The notes under the pieces were generated by a model. It searched no databases and had not been told where the DNA came from. It saw only the letters and a program-made list of their open reading frames with translations. From Cytophagales bacterium CG12_big_fil_rev_8_21_14_0_65_40_12 (lineage in GTDB: Bacteria; Bacteroidota; Bacteroidia; Cytophagales; Cyclobacteriaceae), in contig PCUU01000040.1 of the NCBI GenBank assembly GCA_002786855.1, forward strand, positions 1 through 36,308: 36,308 nucleotides of DNA. Reading direction: 5' to 3'. Position 1 is the stretch's first letter; every line of letters begins with the position of its first letter. Positions 3,649-24,793 of this stretch are shown here, one piece after another. The position numbers and the translations under genes were made by a program.

Positions 3649-5661
3649 ATGATTTCTGATCCTTATCCTATATTCAACACTTTGTGTTTTTGTCATTTTA
3701 AAAGAAATGGACGCTTTAGAAAGGTATTCTCGGCTCCAGTCTTAATGATAATTCTCTTTGCATTTCTGGCGCAAAAGGAGGCCTCAGGTCAAAAAAAAAC
3801 CCTAATTGAAAATGATAGGTTTAACATTTCTATTTCAACAGGAGATGGACTATTGGCTTTTGAGGATTCCACAGGCAGCCTGACAATTCATGATGTTGTA
3901 GATTCAGAGTTATTCAACCAAGGGTTAAATGGCCCAAATAGTCCTACTGGAGTTTATTGGGTGAAGGTTACTTTAATGAATACTACTCCATATGACATGG
4001 ATGTTGTAGCTACTCAACCAAGGTCTATTGAAACTATACTTTATAAACAGGAAGGGGAAGTTTTTTTTAGAGCGCTTTTTGGGGCTTTTCAGAAAAAAAG
4101 TGATTTAAATAAAGGAGATAGCCGTAGTCATGTTTCATTTAAGCTGAAGGCTGGCCTACCTAATGACATTTACTTTAAAGTAAGTGGAAGATCTTTTACG
4201 GCAACTTTTGTCGACTCTAAAACTTTTGTAGCAGCACAATCGCGCAGCCAATTGCAAGACTTTCTTTTTTTCGGTGCCTGCGCCATTCTGATTATCTATA
4301 CGCTGGTTCAATTCCTTATTTACAGGAAAATCTCCTATCTATGGCTGTTAATGTTCACTCTAGGAACTGGCATGTATGCATTTTGTATCAGAGGCTACTT
4401 TATTGATTGGCTAATGCCAGAAATGCCTAAAACGGGGTTGAATTTTTCTTTTGTTTGGTCTCAGGTGGGGCAGTTAGGGGCAATATTGTTAGCTATTGAC
4501 TTCTTGCAATTGAAAAGCAAGTTTCCCGCTTGGTACAAGGTTTTTTTAGGCCTTATTCTTCTCCTTGTCTTTAGAACTTCATACGGGGTATATCTTACTG
4601 CGGTGCTCGATGACTACGGGACAATGACCAATATGGGGCTTTTCACTTTGCTGTTTGATATTGCCGCTTATACTGTGTTACTGTTTTCTGTTTGGAAAAA
4701 AGTAAATGTGAGTAGAAAGGTTTTTCTGTGTGGGCTAATTTTGTTCGGCTTAGGACTTATTATAGTTATCGTGATTTGGAAATCTAGCTTAATTACAGAC
4801 TACAGATTATTCTTATTGTATACCGGATCACTATGCTCATTGGCACAAGTTTTAATTTTTTCAATTGCCTTGGGAATTGAATTGCGTCAACATGAAGTTG
4901 ATAAAAATATAGCCTTGGATGATTTGAATACTGCACTCAAAGACCAAAACCAAAAAGTAGAGATGGAGGTAGTAGAGCGGACAAGAGAGGTGAATTTGCA
5001 GAAGGAACAATTACAAGACAGAAATGAAAAGATTGAGACCCTGTTTAAGGAGATTCACCACAGAGTAAAGAATAACCTTCAGATGATCTCAAGTTTATTA
5101 AATATGCAGCAGGATTTTGTTGGAGATGATAGCTCCTCTAGGGCTTTGGCGGATAGTAGGAGTAGAGTGAGCGCCATGTCCATCATCCATCAATTTCTTT
5201 ACAAGACGGATGATATTGATCAACTTGATTTTAAGGAATACATAGAAGAACTCTCTGCTAAAATAGATGAGTTGTATGGCGGTAAAGTGAGTATTCAATT
5301 GTTAATGAATTTTGACAAGGATTACTCTTACGATTTGGATACGAGTATTTCATTAGGACTTATTCTGAACGAACTGTTTACAAATGCTTACAAGTATGCT
5401 GCTTCTGAAGACCAAGAATTAATGATTAAGATCAATTTGAATGAACAGCATCAGGGGTATTATCAGTTAGATTTTATCGACAATGGAGACGCGATGAAGG
5501 CTCCATTTTCAGAATTGGTAAATAAGGGATTTGGTCTTAGATTGTCATCGCGACTGGCAAGACAGTTGCAAGGAACTTTTAGCTATGAATATGATCATGG
5601 CAATAAGTTTTCGATAATTTTTGCAAGCATGGAAACCAGAATGGCTTTGGCAGATGACTAA
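3649..5661 (+). CDS. 7TMR-DISM sensor histidine kinase
   Basis: The 670 residues form a membrane sensor kinase. A hydrophobic export segment (about 31-48) precedes a periplasmic 7TMR-DISMED2-like sensor domain (about 55-200, including GVYWVKVTLMN). Seven membrane spans lie between about 205 and 410, followed by a coiled coil (412-465). The kinase core is of the HisKA_2 type: the H-box EIHHRVKNNLQMISSLL has its likely phospho-His at 470/471. The ATPase domain has the N-box LNELFTNAYKYA (573-584), DNGD (611-614) and GFGLRL (627-632). DISM domains are thought to sense carbohydrates or other small ligands. The 3' end overlaps the response regulator start by 8 bp, so the two are almost certainly a cognate, translationally coupled pair. 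Met 33 at 3745 would put the signal peptide at the very N-terminus and may be the true start. Confidence 0.9.
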   Translation: MISDPYPIFNTLCFCHFKRNGRFRKVFSAPVLMIILFAFLAQKEASGQKKTLIENDRFNISISTGDGLLAFEDSTGSLTIHDVVDSELFNQGLNGPNSPTGVYWVKVTLMNTTPYDMDVVATQPRSIETILYKQEGEVFFRALFGAFQKKSDLNKGDSRSHVSFKLKAGLPNDIYFKVSGRSFTATFVDSKTFVAAQSRSQLQDFLFFGACAILIIYTLVQFLIYRKISYLWLLMFTLGTGMYAFCIRGYFIDWLMPEMPKTGLNFSFVWSQVGQLGAILLAIDFLQLKSKFPAWYKVFLGLILLLVFRTSYGVYLTAVLDDYGTMTNMGLFTLLFDIAAYTVLLFSVWKKVNVSRKVFLCGLILFGLGLIIVIVIWKSSLITDYRLFLLYTGSLCSLAQVLIFSIALGIELRQHEVDKNIALDDLNTALKDQNQKVEMEVVERTREVNLQKEQLQDRNEKIETLFKEIHHRVKNNLQMISSLLNMQQDFVGDDSSSRALADSRSRVSAMSIIHQFLYKTDDIDQLDFKEYIEELSAKIDELYGGKVSIQLLMNFDKDYSYDLDTSISLGLILNELFTNAYKYAASEDQELMIKINLNEQHQGYYQLDFIDNGDAMKAPFSELVNKGFGLRLSSRLARQLQGTFSYEYDHGNKFSIIFASMETRMALADD

Positions 5662-6271
5662 TTTGAAAAAGAGGATCTTAGTAGTAGAAGATAACATTGT
5701 GATGGCCGATGATCTCTCCAACACGTTGATGAAACTCGGCTATGAGGTGCTTGAGCCTGCAATCACTTACAGTGAAGCCATTAAAGCGCTTGAAAAAGAG
5801 GTTTTAGACCTTGTTATCTTAGATATCAATTTGGGGACAAAAAAAACGGGTGTAGATGTAGCCAATTACATCAAGAAAAATTTGAACCTACCATTCATAT
5901 TCCTCACCTCTTTTACTGATATACGCACATTGGAGCTTGCAAAGGCCACCGTACCCTATGCCTATCTTGTAAAGCCATATCAAGAGATAGACATCATGGT
6001 GGCATTGGAAATTGCCTTAAGTAACTTTCAGAAATTAGCTTCGAACAATACGATTGATGCCGAGCGTCAAATCCCTGACTTCACTTCCATGGAAACGGTA
6101 GTTTTAAAAAAGATTGCTGAAAACCTCACTACTAAACAAATGGCTACCGAGCTTTTTATAAGTGAAAGTACAGTGAAAAACCACAGACATAATATTTGTC
6201 AAAAGCTTGCTTTGCCATCATCGAATAACTCTCTTCTTACATGGGTGCTCAACAATAAGCAGCACTTATAA
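5654..6271 (+). CDS. REC-LuxR response regulator, partner of the upstream kinase
   Basis: The 205-residue protein has a receiver domain (about 6-125) and a LuxR/GerE DNA-binding domain (about 145-205). The receiver is complete: acidic pair E12/D13 in VVEDN, phospho-acceptor D57 in VILDINLG, T85 in FLTS and K107 in LVKPY. The HTH contains MATELFISESTVKNHRHNI, whose STVKNH recognition helix is typical of the NarL/LuxR class. The start at 5654 is preferred over an upstream in-frame ATG (5621) because MTNLKKRILVVED begins as receivers usually do, and because its ATG overlaps the kinase stop. It should bind DNA as a dimer after phosphorylation. The 23-bp inverted-repeat elements before the next two transcription units are candidate targets, by inference. 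Confidence 0.92.
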   Translation: MTNLKKRILVVEDNIVMADDLSNTLMKLGYEVLEPAITYSEAIKALEKEVLDLVILDINLGTKKTGVDVANYIKKNLNLPFIFLTSFTDIRTLELAKATVPYAYLVKPYQEIDIMVALEIALSNFQKLASNNTIDAERQIPDFTSMETVVLKKIAENLTTKQMATELFISESTVKNHRHNICQKLALPSSNNSLLTWVLNNKQHL

Positions 6272-6437
6272 CCCGATTTATGCAATAGGAATCGTGATGA
6301 TGGCGTAAATCACAAAGAATCAGGAAGTTTGGCTTAGATAGCATAGCAGCGCTATGGTGAGAAGACAAACGAAGTATAGCGACTGATTCAAAGTGAGTTA
6401 CGTCAGTAATAGAAAGTCTATTGCATGATTCGGGTTT
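6270..6437. repeat. Palindromic dispersed repeat, MITE-like (copy 1, complete)
   Basis: This 168-bp element begins at the stop codon of the response regulator. Its ends are imperfect inverted repeats of about 55 bp. The left end reads AACCCGATTTATGCAATAG; the right end ends in CTATTGCATGATTCGGGTT. GCGTAAATCAC and AAGAATCAG on the left pair with CTGATTC and GTGAGTTACG on the right. An inner stem pairs GTTTG with CAAAC, and the tip is CATAGC-AGC-GCTATG. Its first 49 bp recur at 36260-36308 with one mismatch. There is no ORF. It fits a non-autonomous inverted-repeat element. As RNA it would fold into one long hairpin and could end or protect the upstream transcript. Confidence 0.8.
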
Positions 6438-6498
6438 AGTCTAGTCATACTTTTCTTCAATTCTCATTCACGCTTTTAGCACTCAGGTGTCAGCCTAT

Positions 6499-6549
6499 AA
6501 ATAGCACCCTAGGGTCTATTTACATCTACTGCTTGTGACGGTAATTTTG
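6499..6549 (+). promoter_or_regulatory. Operator plus promoter of the split response regulator
   Basis: A nearly perfect inverted repeat lies at 6499-6521: AAATAG-C-ACCCT on the left mirrors AGGGT-CTATTT on the right with one extra base. Exactly 20 bp later comes the -7 box TAATTTTG (6542-6549), 16 bp before the ATG at 6566. There is no TTG at the -33 position; the palindrome's right half occupies that place, as in activator-dependent promoters. The same arrangement occurs at 7223-7273. Confidence 0.6.
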
Positions 6550-6565
6550 AGTTTGTCTAAAAGCC

Positions 6566-6928
6566 ATGAAGAAAAACATATTGGTGGTGGAGAACGAAGT
6601 CGTCATTGCCGATGATATTTGTCTTCGTCTTAAAAAATTAGATTATCAAGTACTAGAACCCGCGCTAACTTATAGGCAGGCGCTACATTCGGTTAATAAT
6701 GAGCTGCCCGACCTGGTTTTCATCGATTTACGATTAACGGGTAAAAAGACTGGCATTGACCTAGCTAGGTATATTTTAAAGAATAGCAATATCCCTTTTG
6801 TGTTCATAACGGCTTGCAGTGATTCGGCTTCAATGAAAGAGATCAATCAACTGAAACCCTTAGCCTGTTTAAATAAAGCATTTTCAACTGCCCTGTTGGC
6901 TAAAACCATGGAGAGCGCATGGATTTAA
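6566..6928 (+). CDS. Stand-alone receiver domain, 5' half of a split response regulator
   Basis: The 120 residues are one receiver domain similar to that of the regulator at 5654 throughout (shared ADD, YxVLEPAxTY and TGxDxA stretches). The phospho-acceptor D54 (FIDLRL), T82 (FITA) and K104 (CLNKAF) are present. The acidic pocket reads VVENE, so the Asp that helps bind Mg is Asn (position 10), and the usual KP is KA. Phosphorylation may be weak or absent. The ORF ends just where the paralogue's linker to the LuxR domain begins, and its stop overlaps the next ORF by 10 bp in another frame. This looks like a regulator split by an old frameshift, or a real two-protein form with coupled translation. 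Confidence 0.8.
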   Translation: MKKNILVVENEVVIADDICLRLKKLDYQVLEPALTYRQALHSVNNELPDLVFIDLRLTGKKTGIDLARYILKNSNIPFVFITACSDSASMKEINQLKPLACLNKAFSTALLAKTMESAWI

Positions 6929-7164
6929 ATAATCAAGAAAAAACTCCAGTACAAGATGCATTGGCACCTTTAACCCAAATGGAAAAGAAGGTGGTGTCAT
7001 TGATAAGTCACGGGCTATCCACATTAGAAATTGCAGATAGGCTTTGTCTGAGTAAAAGCACAGTGAAGACTCATCGTCACAACATCTGTAGAAAATTAAA
7101 ACTACCGAAAAACCAGAATGCGCTGCTCAACTGGGTGCTACTTAATAATCATCTGATCAGATAA
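6919..7164 (+). CDS. Stand-alone LuxR-type DNA-binding protein, 3' half of a split response regulator
   Basis: The 81 residues hold a LuxR/GerE HTH (about 20-80) with LTQMEKKVVSLISHGLS and LCLSKSTVKTHRHNICRKL. The domain is closely similar to the C-terminus of the regulator at 5654, down to the final LLNWVLLNN. Its ATG lies 10 bp inside the receiver ORF (ATG 6919-6921, receiver stop 6926-6928), so it is in the -1 frame and probably translated by coupling. Free of a receiver, it could bind DNA constitutively, or act with the upstream receiver as a separate subunit. Its own promoter and that of the giant gene share an inverted-repeat element, so autoregulation plus control of the giant gene is a reasonable guess. 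Confidence 0.78.
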   Translation: MDLNNQEKTPVQDALAPLTQMEKKVVSLISHGLSTLEIADRLCLSKSTVKTHRHNICRKLKLPKNQNALLNWVLLNNHLIR

Positions 7165-7222
7165 AGCACTAAAAATATGCCCAGCCTAAATTTCCTCTTC
7201 AATGAGTCGCGTATTCAAAAAA

Positions 7223-7273
7223 AAATTAAACCCCAGGGTCTATTTCCTGAAAGTAAGGTATGCTCTAGTTTTG
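7223..7273 (+). promoter_or_regulatory. Operator plus promoter of the giant surface-protein gene
   Basis: The 23 bp at 7223-7245 match the element at 6499-6521 at 19 positions, with the right half AGGGTCTATTT identical and the left half degraded. TAGTTTTG follows at 7266-7273, again exactly 20 bp after the element, and again there is no TTG at -33. Transcription would begin near 7278, giving a leader of about 110 nt before the ATG at 7392. Confidence 0.6.
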
Positions 7274-7391
7274 AAACGAGGGATGAAATGTTCCTCAGCC
7301 TCCCAAATAGATTTTAGTATCAGCAACTTCTCTGCTTGTCTTGAACGAGCACAGCTAAACTTTTGCCCAAAAAATACCAAAACAGCCATAT

Positions 7392-10300
7392 ATGAAATTC
7401 ACTAATTCTAACACTTCAAAAACAGCAGGCATGCCTATTCGTTATGTATTGCTCGTTTTAGTAATGCTATTTTCCTTTTTGCAGAATCTTAAGTCTCAAT
7501 CTACCTTTTTAGGAGATATTCAAAGTGCTAAATTCCCTGCCAATATCGAGCAGTTTAAAACTGAGGGTACTAAAGCTTATTTTATTGGAAAGACTAATCA
7601 AGAGGCTGCTAAACATGTATTCATAACAGATGGTACGGAAGCAGGAACGAAGAATCTATCTCAAGCTTTTGAAGTAAACGGTATATTCAATGTACAGCAT
7701 ATTGAGTTGGTGGGGAGTACCTTGTTTTTTTCAACCAATAGCGCAATCTATAAATCAGATGGAACCGTGGTTGGTACTATCAAAGTGGCAGAAGATTTTG
7801 CTTATGGTATTAGTAATTTAAAGGCGGCCAACGGGCTTCTCTTTTTCACTGCCGATGATCAAGTGAATGGAGTTGAATTATGGAAGAGCGATGGTACCGA
7901 AGCGGGTACGCAAATGGTAAAGGACATCAAAGTTGAGTTTTCGCTCTCTGGTAATGACGCTTCCCCCTCTAATTTAATGACGTTAGATAATAAATTAATA
8001 TTTGCAGCCAGCTCCATAGAATATGGATTAGAATTATGGGTTTCAGATGGAACTCAGGCTGGAACGACCTTATTAAAAGACATTAACCCAGGTACTAGTG
8101 GCCTTTTTCGTGTTGGAGCTAGTACCGATATCGCCATCCTGAATAATGAGTTATACTTTAAGCTTCAAGTATCTAATGGTAAAGATCAACTTTGGAAGAC
8201 CGATGGCACCCCCTCTGGCACAGTCTTGATCAGTGATTTTGCAGGTGTATCAACCACTTTGTCTGGGTTCTTAACTTTTAATAATGAAGTTTACTTCGGA
8301 CTTCAGCAAGGTTCAAGTTATAAGCTTTATAAAACTGATGGCACTACGGGCGGTACTATAGAAGTAAGTACAAATGGCCCAGGCCCTAATGCTCAACTGA
8401 AAACTGTTGGTGGTGAATTTTATTATGTTAATAATATAACTTTATATAAATCTGATGGAACAGCTGGGGGTACTTCTGCTATAAAAACATTTAGTAACAG
8501 TAAACTGCTTCCTGTCGAAGGGTTGAATGGTAAATTCATTTTCGTGAGTGATGCTATAGATTTTGGAGGTCTAGGTTACGAATTATGGGAATCAGACGGA
8601 ACGGATGGAGGCACTCAGTTAATTGTGGATCTTTTTCCTGGAGCCACGAGTGGAATCATCACATCTGACAATAATAGCACTATTTCTACCCTTAAACTTG
8701 GATCCGAAATACTCTTTTATGGAGATGATGGAAACTCTGGAGAAACGCTTTGGAAAACAAACGGTACGGCTGGAGGCACTCAGAAAGTAGCGGACATTAA
8801 TCCACAAGGGATCTCCTCACCATTTACCACATTCGTTGACATGGTAAATGTTGGCGCTGAGGTACTTTTTGAACTTCAAAACCAAACGGTAGAATTATGG
8901 AAAACAAATGGAACACTTGGAGGTACAACTAAACTCGTAAATACAGAAAATTTCGAGCAGAGCACTCTGATTTCAGGTGCTACCAAAGCAGCAGCTATTT
9001 TTGGCAAAACACTTTGGTTTATAGAGAATAACCCTTCTGCCCTCAGCAAAGTGTCTATCACGGAAGACCAAGTAGACGGCATTCAAGATGGGGCTTTTAT
9101 TGGTGATAAACTCATTTTCACTTCAGGGATTAATTTGGATATCTACGGGCAAGAAGTATGGGCATCTGATGGTACAAATGGTGGGACTGAAATTTTAGCT
9201 GACATTATTCCTGGTGAATCAGCTCCGAACTTGCCAAAGTCTTCAAACCCCAGTGGTTACACCTCGGTAAATAATTTAGTGTTTTTTACCGCTGGTGAGG
9301 ATGGTAGTAATAATCGCGCATTGTGGGTAACTGATGGTACAGTGGGAGGTACTACTAAATTAACTGCAGCAGGCCCTGGAAGCAGAGGTATAGCCTTAGG
9401 TAATGAGTATTTTTACAGCACTGGAGGAGGGCAGGAAATAGCCAAACTCAATAAATCTGATGGTACCGTTGGGGGCATTGTTGCTGTTAAAACTTTCAGT
9501 GCAGTTCATACTCCAGAAAACTTTCAAGCAGCGAATGATGCCATCTTTTTCACAATTCCATCCGGTGCTGACAGAGGCCTATGGATTTCTGACGGTACCG
9601 AAGCAGGTACAGTTAAAATAAGTACTACAATTACCGCTTTCGCAGATGTGAACAAACAAGGCAATAAATACTATTTCATTAATTCGAGTAAACTATATGA
9701 AACCGATGGCACATTAGCAGGCACTAAAAGTATATTAGGTACTTCTGGTCAAGTGTTAGAAATGGTTGCTGCGGGAGGCAAACTATTTTTCACTTTTCAA
9801 GCGACTCAATTGTTTAGAACTTTCTATGTGTTCGATGGAGATATTTCTACCGTAGTCGAAGTTCCAGGTACCGATGGCCTTAGTAATTTCGAAGACTTGC
9901 ATGTAAACGGTAACAAAGTCTATTTTAGAGCAACTGCGGCTGGTAGTGGTACAGAACTTTATGTTTACGAGGCACCCATTTCACCGACTGTAGCGGTAAG
10001 TATCCGGTATGTATCAGATAATGGAAATCAGGTTATATATGGCGTGCCTGATGGTTATCAAGTAGGAGAACAAGACGCAAATACAAGAGTAGGTGATGCC
10101 ACTTTAGATGATGAAGTGACTAGTTTTTTTGATTTTGTCATCAGCAACTCTGGCGGGGCTGAGTTAACATTTACCTCTGCTCCAACATTCACAGGCACAA
10201 ATGCAGCCTCATTCGAGTTTGTAGATTTTCCAAGCAGCATTGCTGCACAGTCCACTGGAAAATTCAAAGTGAAATATACAGGAAATGACGTTCATGGAAT

Positions 10301-13300
10301 CCAAATCGTAACAGTCAACCTCTTCACTAATGATCCGAGCAATGATACTTATTCTTTTGAAATTAGTGCCAACAACCGTACCGAACCTAGTTTTCAAGGT
10401 TACAATCAAGATTTTGGTATCTTACCGGCCAGCAATAATGGAGAATTAGAGTTTGGCTCATTGGCCATTGGTGAAACCGTAACTAAGACGATTTATGTGG
10501 CAAACCCAGGTTATGGTAATCCTTTAAATATCAATCAGGTTTCTTTTGAAGGAGATGCAGCTGGCGATTATTCCGTCAAAGAAATCCGCAATGAAACTGG
10601 TATTAAGGCTTATTTATATCATACTATTCAACCGGCTAACGCATTGGACTCTATAAAGCTGCGAGAAAGTTTCAGGGCTACAATTGTGATCGAGTATGCC
10701 CCAACTGCTTCGGGCAGTAGGGAGGCCATCATGAGGCTTGATACCAATTCGCCAAGAGATGATTCTGACAACTCGAAATTTCACCTCAATTTGTTAGGTA
10801 GTGGCTCTTGCGTAGATGTAGGAAGTATTACCCCGGCAGGGCCAGTTACCATTTGCCAAGATTCGGGAGAAAGTGTTACCCTGAGTATTCCCGCAATTGA
10901 TGGAGCAGAATATTGCTGGGGAGATACCGGCTGGAAAAGAGTAAAGAATTTTGGAGAAACTAATCCATCTGAACATTATTTGACATTTGATAATGCCAAT
11001 ACTCCAATTGTTGGTATGCGCTCTTCAACTGCGATGGCCAATGTTTATAAATATGAAAACGATGATTTTGTGCAGGTTGGCCCTGCAGATTTCGGTAACA
11101 TAAAGGATAACAGCCAGAACTTTAAAGCGGAAAAGAATTTTGATATAGCTACAAATCCTGTTAACGGAGACATTTATTTTGCCTATTCCGATAACTCAAA
11201 CTCAGGAAAAATCACGGTTAAAACGTTTGATGGTTCTGTCTGGCAGACCGTTGGTGCTAATGGTTTTTCTGATGGTTTGGCAAGACTAGTTAACCTTAAA
11301 ATAAGCCCTTCAGGGGAGCTTTATGTGGCTTTTAGAGATGCCTCAATTTTTAACAGAGCTACTGTCATGACCTTTGATGGCACCAATTGGGTACCATTAG
11401 AGAAAAAAGGATTTACAGCAGCAAGTGCGCTTTCTTTAGACTTAGAGCTAGTAGGTGAAATACCTCATTTGGCTTATAGGGACGGAGGGAAACCTAATAG
11501 TGGCGCTACGGTTGCTAAATTTGAAAATGATGCCTGGACTGTTATCGGTACTGCTGGATTTTCAGAAGGCTCCTTGCAGTATATTGATTTAGAAGTTGAC
11601 TCGAACAACAAGCTTTATGTAGCTTATATTGATGATGAAAATCAAGAGAAATTAGCCATTAAAACTTATGATGGAGCAAATTGGGTCAATGTAGGTTCGA
11701 ATAGTAGACTCCCTAATCAGATATCCGGTTTAGACCTTGAACTGAATGGCACAGTACCTTATTTATCTTACCTAAAAGGGACACGAGCTGGTTTTTATGA
11801 ATATTCAGATGGCGCTTGGCTTGAGAAACAACTGCTTTTTGAAGGCTTTAGCGTTATGTCTCTGGCTACTGATAACAATGGAGTTTTATACAATACTTCA
11901 AATTCATATGTAGTAAGTGGTGTCGGTGAAACTAGCTTCAGTCTACAAAAACTGGAGCTGGGTACCTGCCTAAGCACTACTAATACTTTGGTGACTTCAG
12001 ACCCTGGTTTTTATCAGGTTACCGTTACTATTCCTGGCAGCGGCTGCGTGGCGCGTTCACAAAATATTGTAGAAGTAAGGGTTCAGGAGTGTTTGCCAGC
12101 AATAGTAGTACAAGGGAATGACTTGGAAATAGAAAAAGGGGATCAATTCCCCAGATATCAGGATGGTACACAGTTTATAAACGTGCAAGCAAATGCGACT
12201 GGTTCCTCTACTTTCAATATCATCAATAATGGTTTGGCCGACCTTGACTTAACATTGCCGCTCACCTTAACAGGTGCAAGTGCAGATAAATTTTCGATCA
12301 GTGCGCAGCCTCAGTCCGCAACAGTAGCAAAAGAAGATACCGTGTCATTTGAGGTTCAATTCAATACACCTGCCGATTACAATACCTATGAAGCAATTGT
12401 GAATATTGCCAATAATGTGTCAGGTAAATCACCTTATACATTCAAGGTGAAAGGCACAGCAACGGGCATTAGTCTGTCAATGGTTGATTCCTTTATGTTA
12501 GATAATAATTCCGATGGAAAAGCAGGGCCAAGCGATGTTATTAAGTATACTGTAACTGTAGACAATGCAGTGGGTGCGCCTACTTACACAAATCCTGGCT
12601 TTGCATATTCAAGTGTTATCCCAAATACATCTTTAGTAGTTGGTAGCGTAACTACTTCGGTGGGTTCTGTGGTTACAGGCAATATGGCAGGAGAAACACT
12701 ACCTGCTATTTTTTTAGGAGACCTTGCCGCAGGCGAGAACGTAATCATTACGTTTGAGCTAGAGGTAAGCCCGAATTTAGGAGAGGATGTTGAAGAAATA
12801 ATTGCTCAGGCTCAATTATATATCGACAACCAAATCACTAACCTTACTGATGACCCAAGTATTGGAGGAAATCAAGACCCAACAGTAACGGCAGTTGCGC
12901 CAAAAGGGCTGTCGATGGTAAGTGCTACAAAAGACAGTGACACACAAATTACAGTCACTTTCAGCGATAATGTGGAGATGCCAAATGGCTCTACACCTTT
13001 TGCTAATTTTATTATCACAGATGGTTTGGGTACAGTCTTTTCTGCTTCTAGTATTGCCGATGTTACTGCCGGAGATGATCAATTGATCATTACTGTGGCT
13101 AATACGAGTACAGCTGTAGGCGACTTAATACTCACTTACGATACATCAAAAGATGAAGGGCAAGTTTCAGTGGTAGCTGATAATACTAAGTTCCTTCCAG
13201 ATAATTTTGTAGGAGTAGTAATAGATAGCGACAGTGTGCTGCCTACAATTGTAAGCGCTGAGAAAAACAGCAATACTGAGATCACGCTTACATTTAGTGA

Positions 13301-16300
13301 ACCAGTTCAAACCAATGCTACTAACCCAACTGATTTCACGGTCACTGATGGAGTAAGTGCTAACTTTGCAGTAAGTGCTCAAGCCGATGGCACAGCCAAA
13401 GATGCCCTGATTGTATTGACAGTTACAGATTTATCTGGTGCTGTAGGCGATTTAAAAATCACTTATACTAACAATAATAATGAGATCAGCGATTTCGGAA
13501 ATAACACTTTGGCCACCGATGCTACAGGAGTAAGTATTTCGGATACATGGTCTTTTATCACTACTTGGACCACAACTACTGATGGAGAATCTATTGTTAT
13601 CCCAACTTCTACGCTGAGTACGATCAGCATTATGTGGGGTGATGGTGAATTTGATACAGGAGTCAATGGAAATAAAAGCCATACTTACAGTACAGCGGGG
13701 ACTTATACGGTCAGCATTTCACCTACTATTACCCGCATCTTTATGGGAAGCACAGATGCTGCAAATGATGCTGCAAATAAGGAGAAGCTAACTTCAGTAG
13801 AGCAGTGGGGGGGCTCCGTTTGGGCTGATATGACAGGTGCTTTCTCAGGAGCAACAAATATGGTGGTAAATGCTTCAGGTGCTCCCGACTTGAGTAGCGT
13901 TACCAAGATGAACAACATGTTCAGTAATGCCTCTTCATTTAATCAGAGCATAGACCATTGGGATGTAAGCAATGTAACTGATATGTCAGGCTTGTTTTTT
14001 TCTGCTGAATCATTCAATCAATCCTTAAATAATTGGGACGTTAGTAATGTGACCAACATGAGCGCGATGTTCATTTCAGCAACTGCATTCAATGGGGATA
14101 TTACATCTTGGAATGTAGGCAAGGTCACGGATATGACTTCGATGTTTTCCTATACAGATGTATTTAACCAGGACATTAGTGCATGGAATGTTGGAGCTGT
14201 TCAAAACATGACCAGAATGTTTTTGAATGCAAAAATTTTCAATCAAGATATATCTTCATGGAATGTGGGATCGGTGCTTGATATGAGATCAATGTTTACT
14301 AGTGCAGGTGCTTTTAACCAGTCATTGAATGGCTGGGATGTAAGTAAAGTATCCAATATGTCTTCAATGTTTAGTGCCGCCTCTATATTTAATGGTAATA
14401 TATCGTCATGGGATGTATCGGCAGTAACTAACATGTCTAGTATGTTCAGTGGGGCTAGCGCCTTCAATCAAGACATTAGCGGATGGAATGTGAGCAAGGT
14501 GACTTCTATGCAACAGATGTTTAATGTTGCTCTGGCTTTTAACCAAAATATTGGACTTTGGGATGTCAGTAGCGTTACAAATATGGTAGAGATGATGAGG
14601 TCAACGGGTGCGTTTGATTATGACTTGGGTGATTGGGATCTGACGAGCATTACTTCCATAAGCGGAATGTTAAATGGTACGGGCATGTCAGTCAAAAACT
14701 ATGACGAAACCCTAATAGGTTGGGCGGCACAAGACCTTACAGATGGATTAACTTTTGGGGCCTCTGGACTGAATTATTGTGCGGGTGCAACGGCACGCCA
14801 AAGTTTAATTGATAACCAAGGTTGGACGATCTCTGATGCTGGCGAGCTCTGTCTACCAACTATGGTCAGCGCAGTAATTGACAACAATACACAGATCACG
14901 CTTACTTTCGACCAAAATATTCAAACCAATGGTACTAACCCAACCGACTTTACGATTACCGATGCAGCTGGTAAGACTTATGCTGTAAGTGCTCAGGTAG
15001 ATGGAACTGCAGGTGACATAGATATTGTGCTGACGGTGGCCGATATGAGTGCCGCCTTTGGAGCCCTTACGGTTACCTATACCAATAATAACAACGAAAT
15101 AAGCGATGCTGCTACGGGAGCCTCTTTCTCTGAGACAGATGGAACTGGTGTTAGTATTGAAAGACCTTTTATTACTACATGGATGACTACTTCTCCAAAT
15201 GAAAGTATTACCATTTCTGCAAGAATAGGAGAAACTTACGACTATACCATTCATTGGGGAGATGGAGGCTCTGATGTTAATGTAACTGGTAATGTTACTC
15301 ATGCTTATGTTGTGGCCGGGACTTATGAAGTCACTATTTCAGGTGCTTTTCCCAGAATTTCTATCGGCCAAAGTGCAAATAAACTTCAAACGGTTGAGCA
15401 ATGGGGTAGCCAGCGATGGACTTCTATGCAGGTGGCTTTTAATGCTGCAGAGCACCTAACTGTCAACGCCACAGATGCGCCCGACTTGAGAGGTGTAACA
15501 GTGATGGATGGAATGTTCAGCAATGCGAAAGCCTTTAATCAGGATATAAGTCATTGGGATGTGAGTAACGTGCTTGATTTTTCACAATTATTCAATGGTG
15601 CGGAGACCTTTAACCAGCCTTTAGATGCTTGGGACGTGAGTAGTGCAACTGATATGGAGAGAATGTTTGAAGGAGCCGTGGCTTTTAATCAGGACTTGAA
15701 TAGCTGGGATGTAAGTAATGTTTTGGACATGGAAGACATGTTTAAGGGTGCCACATCTTTCAATGGCAATATTGGCAGTTGGGATGTGAGTAGCGTAACT
15801 ACCATGGATGAAATGTTTAGGGATGCTGCAGCCTTCAATCAAAGTTTGAATAATTGGGATGTAAGCTCAGTTACTACCACTGATAGTATGTTCGAAGACG
15901 CCATTGCTTTCAATGGAGATATCTCATCATGGGATGTGAGCAGTGTGACGCAATTCGGAGGAATGTTTGAAGGAGCACTGGTATTTAATCAGGACATAAG
16001 TGGCTGGGATGTCAGCGCTATGATATCTGCCAGCTTTATGTTTGGACAAACAAATGCTTTCAATCAAGATATCAGTGGTTGGGATATAAGTAGCCTTACA
16101 AGTCCTGCTGCCATGTTCAAAGACGCTATTGCCTTTAATCAAGACATCTCAGCTTGGAATACAAGTAGCTTTGTAAATGCATTTAATATGTTTCAAGGAG
16201 CCACTGTTTTTGACCAAGATTTGGGAGCCTGGGATATTGGAAATCTAACCAATATGACCAATATGTTTAGTAATTCTGGGATGTCGGTTGAAAGCTATGA

Positions 16301-19300
16301 CAATACCTTAATCGGTTGGGCAGCTCAAACAGTCCAAAATGGAGTAACGCTTGGTGCAGCAGGAGTCAACTATTGCGATGGATCAACAGCACGCCAAAGT
16401 TTAATTGATAATCAAGGTTGGACGATCTCTGATGCTGGCGAGCTTTGTTTACCGACTATGGTCAGCGCTGTAATTGACAACAATACACAGATCACGCTTA
16501 CTTTCGACCAAAATATTCAAACCAATGGTACTAACCCAACTGACTTTACGGTTACCGATGCAGCTGGTAAGACTTATACTGTAAGTGCTCAGGTAGATGG
16601 AACTGCAGGTGACACGGATATTGTGCTGACGGTGGCTGATTTGACAGCGGTAACAGGTAAAGTTATCGTCACTTACACTAACAATAATAATGAGATTCGA
16701 GATACGTCTACTGGTACACTTGTTACGGCAACAGATGCTACAGGTGTAATTATAGAACGTGCCTTTATAACTACATGGGAAACGACAACGCCAAACGAGA
16801 GTATAGTAATCCCTACGGCATCTGGAGAAACGTATAGTTATTCTATTAATTGGGGTGATGGCAGTTCTGATGATAATCAAACAGGCAATGCCAGTCATGC
16901 CTATGCAATAGCAGGCTCATATACAGTATCGATAACAGGTACTTTCCCAAGGATTCACTTAGGAAGCAGTATCCCATTTGCCCAAGTAAATAAGGATAAG
17001 CTATTAAAAATTGAACAATGGGGTAGTATCGATTGGAAATCCATGGAAGAGGCCTTCAATGGTGCTTCTAACATGACCATTCAAGCTACAGATGCTCCTG
17101 ACTTAGGTGAGGTTACATCAATGAAAGGGATGTTTTCATCAGCAACCTCTATGAATCAAGACATCAGTCACTGGAATGTGAGTACCATCACAGATATGGG
17201 GTCTATGTTCTCTCGCGCTACGGCCTTCAACCAAGACCTTAGTAATTGGAATACTGGGGCTGTTACAAACATGTGGGGTATGTTCAGTAGTGCGACCAAT
17301 TTTAATGGTGATATCCGTGCTTGGGATGTGAGCAGTGTTGAGTCAATGAGAACTATGTTTGCCGGTGCAACTACTTTTAATCAAGATCTGAATAATTGGG
17401 TAACCAGTAGTTTAACCAGTATGGGAAGTATGTTCGAAGGAGCCAGCGCCTTTAATGGGGCAATGGGGAATTGGGATATGAGCAAAGTAACTGACATGAA
17501 TGCTATTTTCGTTACTGCCGGTAATTTTAATCAAGACATCAGCGGCTGGAATACGAGCGCTCTTACTAATGCTGCCTACATGTTTGAAGGTGCAGCTGCT
17601 TTCAATCAAGATATTTCAGGCTGGGATATGAGTAAGGTTTCTAGCATGAATGGTATGTTTAAGAGCGCCACTTCATTCAATCAAAATTTAGGTGATTGGG
17701 ATATACGCGCTGTAACAGGCATGGCCAATATGCTGTCTGGCTCTGGGCTATCTGGTGCCAATTATGACCTAGCCTTGATAGGATGGGGAGGCCAAACGGT
17801 TCAAAATGGAGTAACATTAGGAGCCGCTGGGATTAACTATTGTGATGGGGCCACTGCCCGTGAAAGCTTAATTAACAACGCTGCTTGGACAATTACTGAT
17901 GATGGGGAACTGTGCAATCCTAAAATGGCAAGCGCTACGAAAGACAGCGATGTTCAAATCACAATAACCTATGATCAAAATGTTCAAACCAATGGTACGA
18001 ATCCGACAGACTTTACTGTCACCGATGGAATAGGGTTAACCTTTGCGGTTACAGCACAAGCTGATGGAACAGCTGGAGATTCCGATATACAATTGACGGT
18101 AGTAGATTTATCCTCAGCAGTCGGTGACATTACGGTGACTTATACCAATAACAATAATGAGATAAGTGATGTAGCGAGCGGAGCACGTTTTGCAGCAACG
18201 GATGCCACAGGTATAACAATCGATACTGATGTAGCAGAACCAACTATGGTAAGTGGGTTAAGAGATAATGACACTCAGCTAACTATTACATTTAGTGAGC
18301 CACTACAGATTTTAAATGCAGACCCGAGTGATTTTAAAATAATCGATGCAAACTCAGTGAATTATGCAGTCACTGCTATTGCAGATGGTACTGCCGAAGA
18401 TAATCAGCTGGTATTTACAGTAGATGATTTTGGTGCTGCTGAAGGCCCACTCACCTTAACTTATGAAAGATGTGGTTCTCAAATTAGCGACTTTGGTAAT
18501 AACTCGATGGGAGATGATTTGGTAGGAATAGAGATTGCCCTTCTGCCCGCTGTTGAGTTTTCTACTACCGCTTCAAATGGTTTAGAATCTGTGAATAGTG
18601 TTGATTTGCTTATCAACTTAGATGAGATAAGTGACGACAATATAACTTTTGACTATACTGTTGCAGGTACAGCTACAGGTGGAGGTACAGATTTCTTACT
18701 CGCTGATGGAAGTGTTACCATAAACGCAGGAGATAATAGTGCTAAAATTAGTATCACAGGAATTGTGGATGATTTCTTGGATGAAGCTGATGAAACCATA
18801 ATAGTCTCTTTCTCTAATCCAGTAAATGCAATACTAGGCACGAATCAAGTCCATACATACACCATTACAGATGATGATGTTGCAGGGTTCACTAAGACTA
18901 AGTCGACCGTAACTATAACAGAAGATGGCTCATCCGAAGCCTTCGATGTGGTGCTAGATTCAGAACCTACAAGTGATGTAGTGATTGATGTTGCGAGCAA
19001 TGACACAGGCGAATCGAGTGTAAGCCCTGCTACTTTAACATTTACTAGTGCCAATTGGAATATCGCACAAACCGTTACAATGACAGGTGAAAACGATGAC
19101 GTTCAGGATGGAGATATAGCTTCAATTATAACGTTAAGCATCGATGCCAACTTAACAACAGATGCTAATTACAGCGGTTTATCTGATCAAAGTGTATCGG
19201 TTACCACGACTGATGAAGATACAGCAGGTTTCTTTAAAAGTAAGACCTCTGTTACAGTCACTGAAGCAGGTAGTTCTGAATCATTTACAGTTTTCTTGGG

Positions 19301-22300
19301 CTCCGAACCTACAAGTGATGTAGTGATTGATATTGCGAGCAATGACACGGGAGAATCGAGTGTAAGTCCATCTACTTTGACATTTACGAGTGCTAACTGG
19401 GATACGCCACAAACTGTGACGGTAACAGGAGTGGATGATGATATTGATGATGGAAATATCACCTCAACAATAACATTGAGCGTCAATGCGGGCTCGACAA
19501 CAGATGCTAACTACAGTGGTTTATCGGATCAAAGTGTATCGGCTACCACGACTGATGATGATACAGCTGGATTCTTTAAAAGCAAATCTATCGTCACGGT
19601 AACAGAAGCCGGAGGTTCTGAAACATTTACAGTTTTCTTGGGCTCCGAACCAACAAGTAATGTGGTGATTGATATTGCCAGCAACGACACGGGAGAATCG
19701 AGCGTTAGCCCTGCTACCTTAACATTTACAAGTGCCAATTGGGATGTTGCCCAAACGGTGACAATAACAGGGGAAAACGATGATGTTCAGGATGGAGCTA
19801 TAGTTTCAACTATAACCTTGAGCATCAATGCCAACTCAACATCAGATGCTAACTACAGCGGTTTATCTGATCAAAGTGTATCGGCTACTACGACTGATGA
19901 AGATACAGCAGGTTTTTTTAAAAGTAAGACCAGCGTTACAGTCACAGAAGTAGGCAGTTCTGAAACATTTACAGTTTTCTTAGGCTCCGAACCTACAAGT
20001 GATGTAGTGATTGATGTTACGAGCAATGACGCGGGAGAATCGAGCGTTAGTCCTGCTACTTTGACTTTCACTAGTGCCAACTGGGATACGCCACAAACCG
20101 TCACAATAAGAGGTGAAAACGATGACGTTCAGGATGGAGATATAGCTTCAATTATAACACTGAGCATCAATGCCAACTCAACATCAGATGCTAATTACAG
20201 CAGTTTGTCTGATCAAAGTGTATCGGCTACCACAACTGATGATGATACAGCTGGATTCTTTAAAAGTAAGACCACCGTTACAGTCACAGAAGTAGGTAGT
20301 TCTGAAACATTTACAGTTTTCTTGGGCTCAGAACCTACAAGTGATGTAGTGATTGATATTGCGAGCAATAAAACAGGTGAATCGAGCGTAAGTCAATCTA
20401 CTTTGACCTTTAGCAGTGCCAATTGGGATACGCCACAAACTGTTACGGTAACAGGTGAGAACGATAACGTTCAGGATGGAGCTATAGCTTCGACTATAAC
20501 TTTGAGCATCAATGCCAACTTAACATCAGATGCTAGCTACAGCGGTTTATCTGATCAAAGTGTATCGGCTACCACGACTGATGATGACGTTGCAGGTTTT
20601 ACTTTAAGTAAGACAACAATGGCTTTAACCGAATCACCTACCTCTGACAAATTTTCGATCACGCTTAATTCTGAACCAGTAGGGGATGTCGTGGTGAGCA
20701 TATCTAGTAATGATGTTAGTGAAGCTTCGGTTTCTGCTTCTTTAATGACTTTTACTTCTTCCAATTGGAATGTTGCACAGTTTGTTACGGTAACTGGTGT
20801 AGATGATGACATCGTGGATACTGATCAATCTGTAACGGTTACAATTTCAGTGGATGATAATTCAAGCGATGACACTTATGATCCTCTAAATGATCAAACA
20901 ATTTCGGTTACTGTAGAGAATACCACTTCAACTTTTGTCTCTATTGCAGATGTAACTGGGGTAGAAGATGACGGGACAATCAATGTTATAGCAACGCTTG
21001 AGAAAGCAGTAGAAGGAGGTTTTTCTTTAAATTTCTCGACAGTTGATGGAACAGCAATAGCCGGTAGTGATTTCACAGCCTTGACTAATGCATCTATAAA
21101 CTTTGCTGGAACAGTAGGTGAAACTCAAAACATCGTGCTGCAACTCATTGATAATGCAGATGGAGAGTTAGTTGAAAACTTAAAAGTTATCCTTAATTCA
21201 ATAAGTGGTACTACGCTAGCCTCACTAATAGATATTTCGGACGATGCTATAGTCACCATTACAGACGATGATGCTCAGGTAGTCGCCAGCGTTTCGGTAC
21301 CATCTAATGGCACTTTCAAAATAGGCGATAATTTAGATTTTACCGTCACCTTTAGTAATCCCATTTCTATTTCAGGTGGAACAACTAGTCTACCGATTAT
21401 AATTGGTAGCACTCAAGTAAATGCCATTCAAGTAAGGGCAGTAACCAACAGCAGTACCGTTCTCTATCGATATGTTGTGCTTGAAGACCAACTTGATGAA
21501 AATGGAATATCAGTTGGTTCAGCTTTAAATCTAAATGGAAGTACTATCAAAGATCAATTTAATGTAGATGCTATTCTTTCTTTAAACAGTATAGCCGCTA
21601 CTTCGGCTGTATTGGTAGATGGGGTAAAGCCGACTCCAGTGATCTCATCAACAGTGGGAGCTTTAACCAATACGGCTTTCACGGCTACATTCAATTATGA
21701 TGAGGCTGTGGAGGGACTCGATGTAGCGGATATCACTGTAACTAATGGAATAGCTAGCGATTTTACTTCTTTAACAACAGGAACAGCTTGGAGCGCCATT
21801 ATTACTCCATTAGCAGATGGGCCATTAACAATCACATTGAATGCTAATGTTACTGCCGATATCGCAGGTAATGCAAGTAAAGCTGGAAATACATTGAGTA
21901 CTACATATGATGCAACAGCTCCTACGGTTTCGAGCATCACTAGATCAGAAGATGGCCAGCTGCCAACGGGGACCACATCGGCCAACTTTACCATTGTTTT
22001 CTCTGAAGATGTAACGGGTGTCGACTTGGCTGACTTTGAAATTGTGTTAACAGGAACAGCAACAGGAACAGTTAATACAATCACTCGGGTAGATGCAAAG
22101 ACCCATACAGTAAATGTAAATGGCATTGGCGGGCAAGGTACAATTGGCCTGAATGCTAAAGATGATGACACGATTATCGATGCTGCTACCAATCCATTGG
22201 CAGGCACATTCACAGGTCAAGTGTACAGTACCAATTTTATTCCAACCGACATTCTTTTGAGTGATGTTACTATCGCAGAGAACAATGCGTTGAATGCTAA

Positions 22301-23152: not shown

Positions 23153-24793
23153 ATGCAAAAGCAAATGAAAAACTTAAGAAACATATTCATCCTTGTGTTT
23201 ACCTTAGCTTTGATAGTCAAAGAGTCAAAGGCGCAACAAGTACCCTTGTTTAACCAATATTATTACTCAGGTAGTCTTGCGTTTCCATCAGGTACTGTCT
23301 TTCTGGAAAACCGTTATTTAAGTCTGGTTTATAGAGATCAATTTGGAGGACTTGTCGGTTCTCCTAAAAACTTTGCTTTGGCATATAACACTGCTATAAA
23401 GGGAAGAAAAGCATTCAGTTTTAATATTGCCACGGCCGATATCGGATTTACCAGCCAGATTAAACTCTCAGGAGGAATGGGCTATAAATTATTTGGCCGA
23501 GGTAAAGATGGCCTTTCAGTTGGTGCTCAAATGGGCTTATCTCTTTTTAGTTTGAATGAAGAGAGGGTCAACCCCGAAAATCCTGCTGATAATGTGTTGA
23601 TTGACGTGTTGGGCCAAAATGGTAGTTCACTTAGCTTTGACTTTTCCGTCACTTACAGAATAGGAAAGTTTGGAATAGATGTAGCGATACCAAATTTGAT
23701 CAATGAAAGCTTATCGGACGATGCTTACGTACGGATCAACGATGATAACGTACCTGATTTTATAGGTGGAGCACGCTACGCCTTTTCTATTAACTCAGAC
23801 TTGATTTTCACACCTTATGCTGGGATTAGACTGAGGGAGACAATAGGGGCCGAGCTTGATCTCTTGGGTGAGGTTAATTTTAAAGATAAGTTTAGGCTAA
23901 CAGCAGGCTATAGAGATAATTATGGACCAAGTATAGGGCTAGGTACAAAGGTTTTTCCTCAGCTGTTCTTTACCTATAATTATGATTTTGGCGAAAAGGA
24001 CGCGCCATTTCTGGCCGATGGCTTTAACGAGTTCGGCTTGCACCTTCAACTCAACGATAAAGTTGATCAACAATCGATATGTGTTATGGAAGGCGAAGCC
24101 GTTGTCAATAGAATTATAGATCAAAAAATATTTGATGAGAATCTAGTTAGTGCAGACGATAAGGATAAAGCCCTTTGTTACTTCGCAAGTCTAGAGGTAG
24201 GTAAGAGCAGGCAAAAAAATCTTAAAGCAGAGCAAGCGTTCCAAGCGCTTTTTACCAAAGTAAAAGCCGATGAATTAGAGAATCAAGAAATCGTAAGATT
24301 AGCTAAACTCCAAGAGGAACAGCGACTTAAAGAAGAGCGTGAGCAGGCTGAGATCAGAGCAGAGCGCGAAAAGCTAGCAGAAATCGAGAAATTGAAACTG
24401 AAGGAATTAGAACGACTAGCGCAAATCAAAGAAGAAGAAATCAAAAAAGCTCTAACCCTCGCTACAGAATCTGTTTCGTTTAAAACTGGCAGTTCAGAAC
24501 TAACAGATGAGTCAAAAGCACCTCTAGATAGAGTAGTAGTGTTATTAAGTGAAAATAAGGAGGTAAAGCTTGCCTTAGCAGGATTTACTGATAATACTGG
24601 AAATGCAGAAGCAAACCTGCGCTTATCTCAAGTAAGGGCAGAGGCGGTGAAAGCCTACTTAGTCCTAAAAGGGATTTCAAGCGAAAGAATAACGGCAAAA
24701 GGCTTTGGTATTGCTGATCCAAGAGCAGATAATTCCACAAGTGAAGGGAGGGCATTAAATAGACGAGTGGAGATGAAGATAGTAAAGAATTGA
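23153..24793 (+). CDS. PorP/SprF-family outer-membrane protein fused to an OmpA domain
   Basis: The 546 residues have a signal peptide (1-27, ending SKAQQ). A PorP/SprF beta-barrel follows (about 28-305; PLFNQYYYSGSLAFPS at the start, PEDNxDY-like spacing lost). Next come a short Cys-containing linker (CVMEGEAVV to KALCYFAS), a charged coiled coil (about 370-435) and an OmpA-type peptidoglycan-binding domain (about 438-546, with VSFKTGSSELTDESK, GFTDNTGNAEANLRLSQVRA and GRALNRRVEM). PorP/SprF proteins partner T9SS type B clients. The extra OmpA domain would tie this barrel to the cell wall. The gene begins 11 bp after the giant gene and ends before a strong terminator, so the two form one operon. 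The second ATG (23165) is an alternative start. Confidence 0.9.
   Translation: MQKQMKNLRNIFILVFTLALIVKESKAQQVPLFNQYYYSGSLAFPSGTVFLENRYLSLVYRDQFGGLVGSPKNFALAYNTAIKGRKAFSFNIATADIGFTSQIKLSGGMGYKLFGRGKDGLSVGAQMGLSLFSLNEERVNPENPADNVLIDVLGQNGSSLSFDFSVTYRIGKFGIDVAIPNLINESLSDDAYVRINDDNVPDFIGGARYAFSINSDLIFTPYAGIRLRETIGAELDLLGEVNFKDKFRLTAGYRDNYGPSIGLGTKVFPQLFFTYNYDFGEKDAPFLADGFNEFGLHLQLNDKVDQQSICVMEGEAVVNRIIDQKIFDENLVSADDKDKALCYFASLEVGKSRQKNLKAEQAFQALFTKVKADELENQEIVRLAKLQEEQRLKEEREQAEIRAEREKLAEIEKLKLKELERLAQIKEEEIKKALTLATESVSFKTGSSELTDESKAPLDRVVVLLSENKEVKLALAGFTDNTGNAEANLRLSQVRAEAVKAYLVLKGISSERITAKGFGIADPRADNSTSEGRALNRRVEMKIVKN

Follow-up and report, generated by a model that had tools for sequence, protein, structure and literature searches.

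A conserved inverted-repeat element as the putative operator of a REC-LuxR response regulator, upstream of a split regulator paralogue and a giant surface-protein gene in a Cytophagales bacterium

Introduction

Response regulators of the NarL/FixJ type, among them NarL, VraR, and DevR, act at inverted-repeat operators near -40, and two-component systems have been tied to surface proteins or to protein export in Bacteroidota. FimR, of the Porphyromonas gingivalis FimS/FimR system, is described as directly binding and activating the promoter of the surface-fibre gene mfa1 (PMC1974823), and PorX/PorY two-component control is described as governing genes that include those of the T9SS machine (PMC8050853). 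On the side of the exported proteins, the Flavobacterium johnsoniae SprB/SprF pair is reported to consist of a giant, repetitive type B T9SS substrate whose gene lies beside that of a PorP-like partner (PMC9143113).

Here we analyze a stretch of 36,308 nucleotides (hereafter the window) from a Cytophagales bacterium, in which a repeated 23-bp element precedes both a second set of regulator genes and a gene for a 5249-residue surface protein. To our knowledge, the response-regulator operators defined so far in Bacteroidota are few, and little is known of what leads members of this phylum to produce surface proteins thousands of residues long. Comparisons within the window, across its genus and family, and with a larger collection of genome contigs suggest that the element is very probably the landing site of a regulator of the type we call RR1, placed before that regulator's own split copy and the giant surface protein.

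Results

Geometry of the two element copies

Both copies of the element lie on the forward strand, at 6499..6521 (AAATAGcACCC-TA-GGGTCTATTT; in full AAATAGCACCCTAGGGTCTATTT) and at 7223..7245 (AAATTAAACCC-CA-GGGTCTATTT; in full AAATTAAACCCCAGGGTCTATTT), and they form direct repeats in the same orientation, 724 bp apart. A first-pass annotation of this DNA had reported that they match at 19 of 23 bases with AGGGTCTATTT identical, and that 20 bp separate each from its -7 box. The sequence agrees on both counts: the copies are also recovered by repeat comparison (repeat D1, 83%), and the spacing is exact for TAATTTTG (6542..6549, forward strand) as well as for TAGTTTTG (7266..7273, forward strand). 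Both boxes fit TAnnTTTG, the -7 form of Bacteroidota sigma-A. The same annotation was right that neither promoter has a TTG at -33, where the sequence reads CTATTTAC and CTATTTCC (CTATTT in both promoters); this lack is consistent with dependence on an activator.

In Flavobacterium psychrophilum, TAnnTTTG is reported to occupy -12 to -5 (PMC9723704), and by that numbering both ACCCnnGGGT cores of the window would be centered at -43.5. The element as a whole extends from roughly -33 to -55, overlapping the -33 position. Copy 1 is the near-palindrome that had been proposed, AAATAG-c-ACCCT against AGGGT-CTATTT, that is, an inverted repeat whose upstream arm carries one extra base. Copy 2 keeps the ACCC..GGGT core and has a weaker upstream arm, and the upstream arms of the window copies are weaker than those found in relatives. 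As a minor correction of the 23-bp form, the putative functional unit is best written as a 10-bp core, ACCCnnGGGT, with outer AAATAG/CTATTT.

The window contains 28 TAnnTTTG boxes, counting both strands, and the best pair of 23-mers located 20 bp upstream of such boxes shares 19 identities. First-order shuffles of the window (n = 200) gave best pairs with no more than 17 identities (mean 13.25). Besides the 19-identity pair, one further pair of 23-mers in the window has at least 16 identities. The expectation that the window holds no third copy is borne out by a weight matrix trained on other genomes (described below), for which the next match scores 5.7 bits and is the palindrome of copy 1 read backwards.

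We also searched the organism's own genome, which comprises 4.06 Mb in 99 contigs, the window being contig C68. The pattern AGGGTCTATTT-N17-23-TANNTTTG has two exact matches in the whole 4.06-Mb genome (control 0). With up to two mismatches allowed, CCCNAGGGTCTATTT gave 16 genome matches, none of them with exactly one mismatch, vs. 15 in the control; ACCN4GGTCTATTT-N20-TANNTTTG with up to three mismatches gave two exact matches and three with three mismatches, and 8 in the control (whole genome). No third site of this kind was thus found in the 4.06-Mb genome by the patterns used. The first-pass annotation would have been undercut by many genomic copies unconnected with promoters, and these patterns returned only the two sites of the window. 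A repeat family is ruled out as the nature of the element, there being only two exact genome copies.

Regulator genes around the elements

A sensor histidine kinase of 670 aa is encoded at 3649..5661 on the forward strand (Pfam domains 7TMR-DISM, HisKA_2, and HATPase_c), directly upstream of the response regulator RR1 (5654..6271, forward strand, ATG at 5654). RR1 is a full-length protein with a REC domain and a LuxR/GerE helix-turn-helix (HTH), the Pfam scores for which (Response_reg 54.8 bits, GerE 47.7 bits) are both above the gathering score. Helix comparison gives TVKNHRHNI, and RR1 is the proposed binder of both elements. Two shorter genes on the forward strand follow element 1: REC2 (6566..6928), a stand-alone receiver of 120 aa, and HTH2 (6919..7164), a stand-alone GerE HTH of 81 aa with the helix TVKTHRHNI. 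A Pfam scan of RR1, REC2, and HTH2 found no autoinducer-binding domain of the quorum-sensing LuxR kind.

That these two short genes are the halves of a split paralogue had been suggested from the reading frames, and alignment agrees, since they match the N-terminal and C-terminal halves of REC-LuxR proteins and meet in the linker. REC2 aligns with RR1-type receivers (50% identity to that of Roseivirga-group genome G013) and ends where the linker starts, while HTH2 begins within the linker and aligns with the HTH at 43-54% identity (ten matches). Upstream of 6904 the HTH2 frame is closed. On this evidence the second regulator is split at the linker, by evolution or by an assembly error. None of the other 11 loci with a regulator of the same helix type (KNxRH, see below) contains an HTH-only frame of at least 40 residues similar to HTH2, and at the place of REC2/HTH2 the relatives carry full-length REC-LuxR genes or REC-only genes. 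At 6919-6928, the REC2 gene, stop included, runs 10 bases into HTH2 (counted from its ATG), an overlap of the kind seen in translational coupling.

Because RR1 alone is full length and is encoded directly behind the kinase, it is favored over HTH2 as the candidate binder. HTH2 may bind the element too, as its helix is nearly identical to that of RR1.

Between RR1 and element 1 lies a self-complementary intergenic repeat of about 167 bp (6270-6436), with a predicted folding energy of -61 kcal/mol as RNA. Copies with 96% identity occur on two other contigs of the same genome, and partial copies on two more; full-length copies (85-89%) are present in G001 and G015, another copy is found in G013, and G013 and G015 contain dozens of partial matches. 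An Rfam search of window positions 6200-7400, the repeat included, gave no match.

Conservation and spacing in related genomes

Lack of conservation in related genomes would have spoken against the element, and we find it conserved in the genus, in the family, and in the contig collection. It occurs in two forms, one of 22 bp (AAATAGACC-TTAA-GGTCTATTT), found in Roseivirga relatives, and one of 23 bp, close to AAATAGnACCC-nn-GGGTCTATTT, found in the window, Pedobacter, Chitinophagaceae, Aquirufa, and a flavobacterium.

Within the genus, GGTCTATTT-N18-22-TANNTTTG gave 14 matches in 9 of 19 genomes (control 3), all except one at N20 (13/14). The matches in G011 (N20) and G015 (N18) lie within open reading frames and were discounted as sites. 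Across the family, AGACCN4GGTCTATTT-N15-25-TANNTTT matched 17 times in 7 of 390 genomes, every time at N20 (17/17), with no match in the control. For the looser GGTCTATTT-N15-25-TANNTTT, 11 family genomes (that of the window among them) gave 36 matches, 24 of which have the N20 spacing; several of these genomes had been met through the N18-22 pattern. Its totals are about those of the backward control (36 vs. 33 in the family genomes, 30 vs. 31 in the others), so that the signal there is the N20 peak alone. In eight genomes to which motif loci had led, N20 accounts for 14 of 30 loose matches, a share that is partly circular in that their loci had been chosen with N20. Genome G004 has a further N20 match to the loose pattern at C7:806604.

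In the collection of genome contigs, ACCN4GGTCTATTT-N20-TANNTTTG matched 26 stretches, 19 of them outside reading frames of more than 150 codons. These 19 belong to Roseivirga, a second genus of the family, an uncultured Cytophagales bacterium, Aquirufa, Pedobacter, Chitinophagaceae/Chitinophagales, and a flavobacterium. The remaining seven were set aside as chance: L116, L117, L125, L131, and L135 lie inside reading frames, and L113 and L133 are two Nostoc records with near-identical sequence. A strict pattern of the 23-bp type had no match in 395 genomes of the phylum, and it is therefore the contig-collection search that carries the breadth of the element beyond the family.

From the chosen loci, 45 distinct sites were tabulated, and a weight matrix was built from 29 non-redundant sites of 41, the window being left out. 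Information averages 1.62 bits per position over the 16-bp core and 1.26 over the -7 box, both of which had been used in selecting the sites. For unselected positions, the average is 0.83 bit per position over the 8 upstream of the core vs. 0.18 in the spacer. Applied to the window, the matrix scores copy 2 at 44.1 bits and copy 1 at 35.2 bits (100 shuffles reached at most 15.4). These high values are partly circular, since patterns derived from the window copies or their relatives had served to collect the training sites.

Linkage to one type of LuxR-domain regulator

The first-pass annotation had also linked the element to a LuxR-domain regulator encoded nearby, and three observations support this link: the linkage at individual loci, the pattern of presence and absence across the genus, and a common recognition helix. 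A site is present in 11 of the 12 loci that encode a regulator with a KNxRH helix, in contrast to 0 of 22 loci of other LuxR-type regulators (Fisher 4e-8). For both sets, a site was defined as a core with at most one mismatch, N20, and at least four of the six -7 box letters; the stretches compared span 12-16 kb for the control loci, 8.2-19 kb for the KNxRH loci, and 36.3 kb for the window. The twelfth KNxRH locus, which has no site (G010), is on a contig that ends inside the neighboring kinase gene. Among the 12, the window and L089, L090, L092, L094, and L205, these five having been chosen for their motif matches, are not independent of the motif. The other six, L069-L072 and L201-L202, had been chosen by protein similarity; five of them have a site, the miss being G010. 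All four of L069-L072, fetched before the motif was sought in relatives, have one, and L073 and L074, fetched together with them and bearing another helix, have none.

The recognition helix common to the site-linked regulators is T(V/I)KN(H/Y/Q)RHxI, vs. VEKHRSNI or KFHIKNLY, for example, in other LuxR-type regulators; none of the 17 readable helices among the 22 control loci is of the KNxRH type. Orthologues of RR1 (E <= 1e-50) are encoded by 9 of the 19 genus genomes, eight of which have sites: seven by the strict pattern, plus G017, where variant -7 boxes stand at N20 upstream of two REC genes. The ninth genome is G010, with its truncated contig. In the 10 genus genomes that lack RR1, GGTCTATTT-N18-22-TANNTTTG has no site outside reading frames.

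For distant genomes selected by the motif, six of eight have a KNxRH regulator 2.0-2.1 kb from the nearest site, and in these six a kinase gene lies between regulator and site, divergent from the site. In Aquirufa (G779), the KNxRH regulator and the site are on separate contigs. An uncultured Cytophagales genome (G777, CALEMF01) has a run of sites and no KNxRH regulator in the stretch read (L296), and its best matches to RR1 are weak (E 1.3e-15 and 3.4e-14). The neighboring kinases were recognized by similarity to the kinase of the window; of the four that were scanned for domains (L069, L121, L205, L291), every one has HisKA_2, and all but that of L205 have 7TMR-DISM.

Stretch L296 (G777:C20:1-16000) contains six site copies within about 12 kb, and at least one copy precedes two paired genes, the second of which encodes a protein with a T9SS type A tail.

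Genes downstream of the sites

Downstream of element 2, the gene at 7392..23141 on the forward strand encodes a surface protein of 5249 aa in which 3 + 7 stretches match DUF285 repeats. Its C-terminus carries a T9SS type B sorting domain (TIGR04131, 63.4 bits against a cut-off of 35; CHU_C match). A PorP/SprF-OmpA outer-membrane partner follows at 23153..24793, forward strand (TIGR03519 above cut-off), and the 11-base gap between the two suggests that its gene is likely co-transcribed with that of the giant protein.

The giant surface protein as a putative target, proposed in the first-pass annotation, is conserved in some of the relatives. A site precedes a giant surface protein in three of the eight site-bearing Roseivirga genomes, namely that of the window (G000), G007, and G013, and no such protein was found behind a site in the other five. 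Common to all eight (G000, G001, G002, G004, G005, G007, G013, G017) is a site upstream of REC-only or REC-LuxR accessory genes, and for G004 and G017 no target was found beyond these. In G007 (L091), the product encoded after one site carries DUF285, and the G013 products have Ig-like and FG-GAP repeats, one of them with a T9SS type A tail. In G001, G002, and G005, a 511-residue protein is encoded downstream of the sites that lie behind the second regulator; in G002 it is of the GH3 family and not a surface protein.

Several arrangements near these sites were noted along the way. At L069 10389-10804, and at the same place in L070 and L090, sites precede a GH3-family protein (R. ehrenbergii, two sites) or its counterparts (R. 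echinicomitans, R. seohaensis), a target unlike the surface-protein targets elsewhere. A further palindrome in L094 (10227-10240, G013) stands before the gene of a 1111-aa protein and has no -7 box. In L092 (6192-9557, G007), a 1121-aa protein whose C-terminus is similar to that 1111-aa protein is encoded in the opposite direction and adjoins the giant-protein site.

In the family's second genus, the genes preceded by sites encode long proteins that run past the sequence seen (G213, and contig 83 of G149), as well as an 867-residue Lcl_C-domain protein and a 320-residue protein with a phage-collar domain. At 11338 and 7426 of L072 (G149:C36), two CCCTGGGGTCTATT(T/G) boxes stand before a kinase gene and the gene of an 867-residue protein, with poor -7 boxes. 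Beyond the family, sites in Pedobacter (L126, L137) and the flavobacterium (L136) are each followed by a gene whose DUF285 product bears a T9SS type A sorting domain. Sites of the uncultured Cytophagales bacterium are likewise followed by genes for T9SS type A proteins, directly in L120 and in second place in L129, and in L124 and L127 such genes occur later in the run.

Discussion

Proposed mechanism

We consider it probable that RR1, together with its kinase, binds the element as a dimer and activates the split paralogue and the 5249-residue adhesin. The 23-bp element would then be the putative operator of a NarL/FixJ-type (REC-LuxR) regulator, RR1 (5654-6271), working with the 7TMR-DISM/HisKA_2 kinase encoded just before it. 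Once phosphorylated by this kinase, RR1 would dimerize on the inverted repeat centered about -43.5, overlap the place of the missing -33 box, and recruit RNA polymerase in a class II-like manner. In so doing it would switch on both the REC2-HTH2 genes and the gene of the giant adhesin, the latter along with its PorP/SprF partner. That its action is activation is suggested only by the position of the element and the missing -33 TTG.

More weakly, the products of the split paralogue might feed back on the system. REC2 could serve as a sink that draws phosphate from the kinase, and HTH2 might bind the operator as well, either competing for it or sharing it as a helper; such feedback would limit the output of a very costly protein.

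Alternative readings

The main rival to activation is repression by the same regulator at the same operator: a dimer of RR1 (or HTH2) would cover the -33 region and block polymerase until a signal arrives. The position of the element, at roughly -33 to -55, would suit a repressor, and HTH2, with nearly the same helix and no receiver, could bind without a signal. Promoters with no -33 TTG are, however, expected to be weak unless helped. Contact with polymerase demands a fixed spacing, whereas repression tolerates shifts, and the strictly fixed 20 bp seen here look like the demand of such a contact. We therefore regard repression as unlikely, and activation by RR1 remains our preferred reading. 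The fixed distance to the -7 box is also about the size of a promoter spacer, which might suggest that the element is not a regulator's operator at all but the -33/-35 element of an alternative (e.g., ECF) sigma factor. Yet the box is an inverted repeat of 22-23 bp whose 8 unselected upstream positions are far more informative than the spacer, it is followed by a -7 box of the ordinary sigma-A form, and it travels with a LuxR-type regulator, all of which makes a sigma-factor element very unlikely.

Two further readings do without a regulator. Invertible promoters bounded by inverted repeats are known in Bacteroidota, and with a multi-copy repeat nearby at 6270-6436, the copies might be taken for recombination sites that flank an invertible or deletable promoter segment, or for fragments of a mobile repeat. 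The two copies run in the same direction, however, which is not the opposed arrangement of an invertible promoter; exact copies number only two in the genome, and the distance to the -7 box is kept before unrelated genes of many genomes. Recombination sites are thus an extremely improbable explanation. Just as hard to credit is that the match of 19 in 23 bases reflects chance or a recent local duplication with no function, even though the genome has only two copies and both are in one gene neighborhood: the element is conserved with exact spacing in other genomes and genera, and it is linked to one regulator type. Chance similarity as such is ruled out by the N20 result in the family, the shuffles and matrix, and the regulator linkage.

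Scope and significance

A wider generalization, which we put forward tentatively, is possible but doubtful. An operator family consisting of a GGTCTATTT box, N20, and TAnnTTTG might be common from Cytophagales to Pedobacter, Chitinophagaceae, and Flavobacteriaceae, and through it HisKA_2 kinases and LuxR-type regulators with a KNxRH helix would control very large, T9SS-exported repeat proteins, often with DUF285. In the present genome, the second regulator would have come apart, its receiver and its DNA-binding domain each being free and both under the same operator, giving a built-in feedback of phosphate sink and competing binder. Our confidence in this broader proposal is lowered by the finding of giant-protein targets in only three of the eight site-bearing Roseivirga genomes.

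The analysis provides a concrete putative operator together with its candidate binder (RR1) and kinase, predicts the spacing to single-base precision, and names a few candidate targets; the box pattern can be used to seek targets of the same system in other genomes. No published description of this box or operator was found among the literature matches listed. One of the papers, PMC12239597, includes a LuxR-like protein, which belongs to an unrelated suppressor background.

Comparison with known systems

The class of mechanism is already known; among the literature matches listed, the operator, the regulator subtype, and the targets have not previously been put together. The likeness to NarL/FixJ-type regulators lies in the REC and GerE architecture of RR1 and in an inverted repeat centered near -43.5. 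Solved relatives include NarL, DesR, DevR, and FixJ, and those of the HTH include VpsT, EsrB, DevR, VraR, and NarL. The differences are that the operator here consists of GGTCTATTT with its mirror, which we take to be unlike the NarL heptamer, that the partner kinase is of the 7TMR-DISM/HisKA_2 type, and that the promoter is of the Bacteroidota type with a -7 TAnnTTTG.

FimS/FimR, as described, offers a precedent in the form of a two-component system of the same phylum with direct control of a surface-fibre gene, although its described targets are fimbriae. PorX/PorY shares with the present locus a two-component control tied to the T9SS; here, by contrast with the account given of that system, a REC-LuxR protein is the regulator, and one of the proposed targets is an exported surface protein. 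The SprB/SprF genes of F. johnsoniae, in the published description, form the same kind of gene pair as is found in the window, where the giant protein differs in carrying DUF285 repeats.
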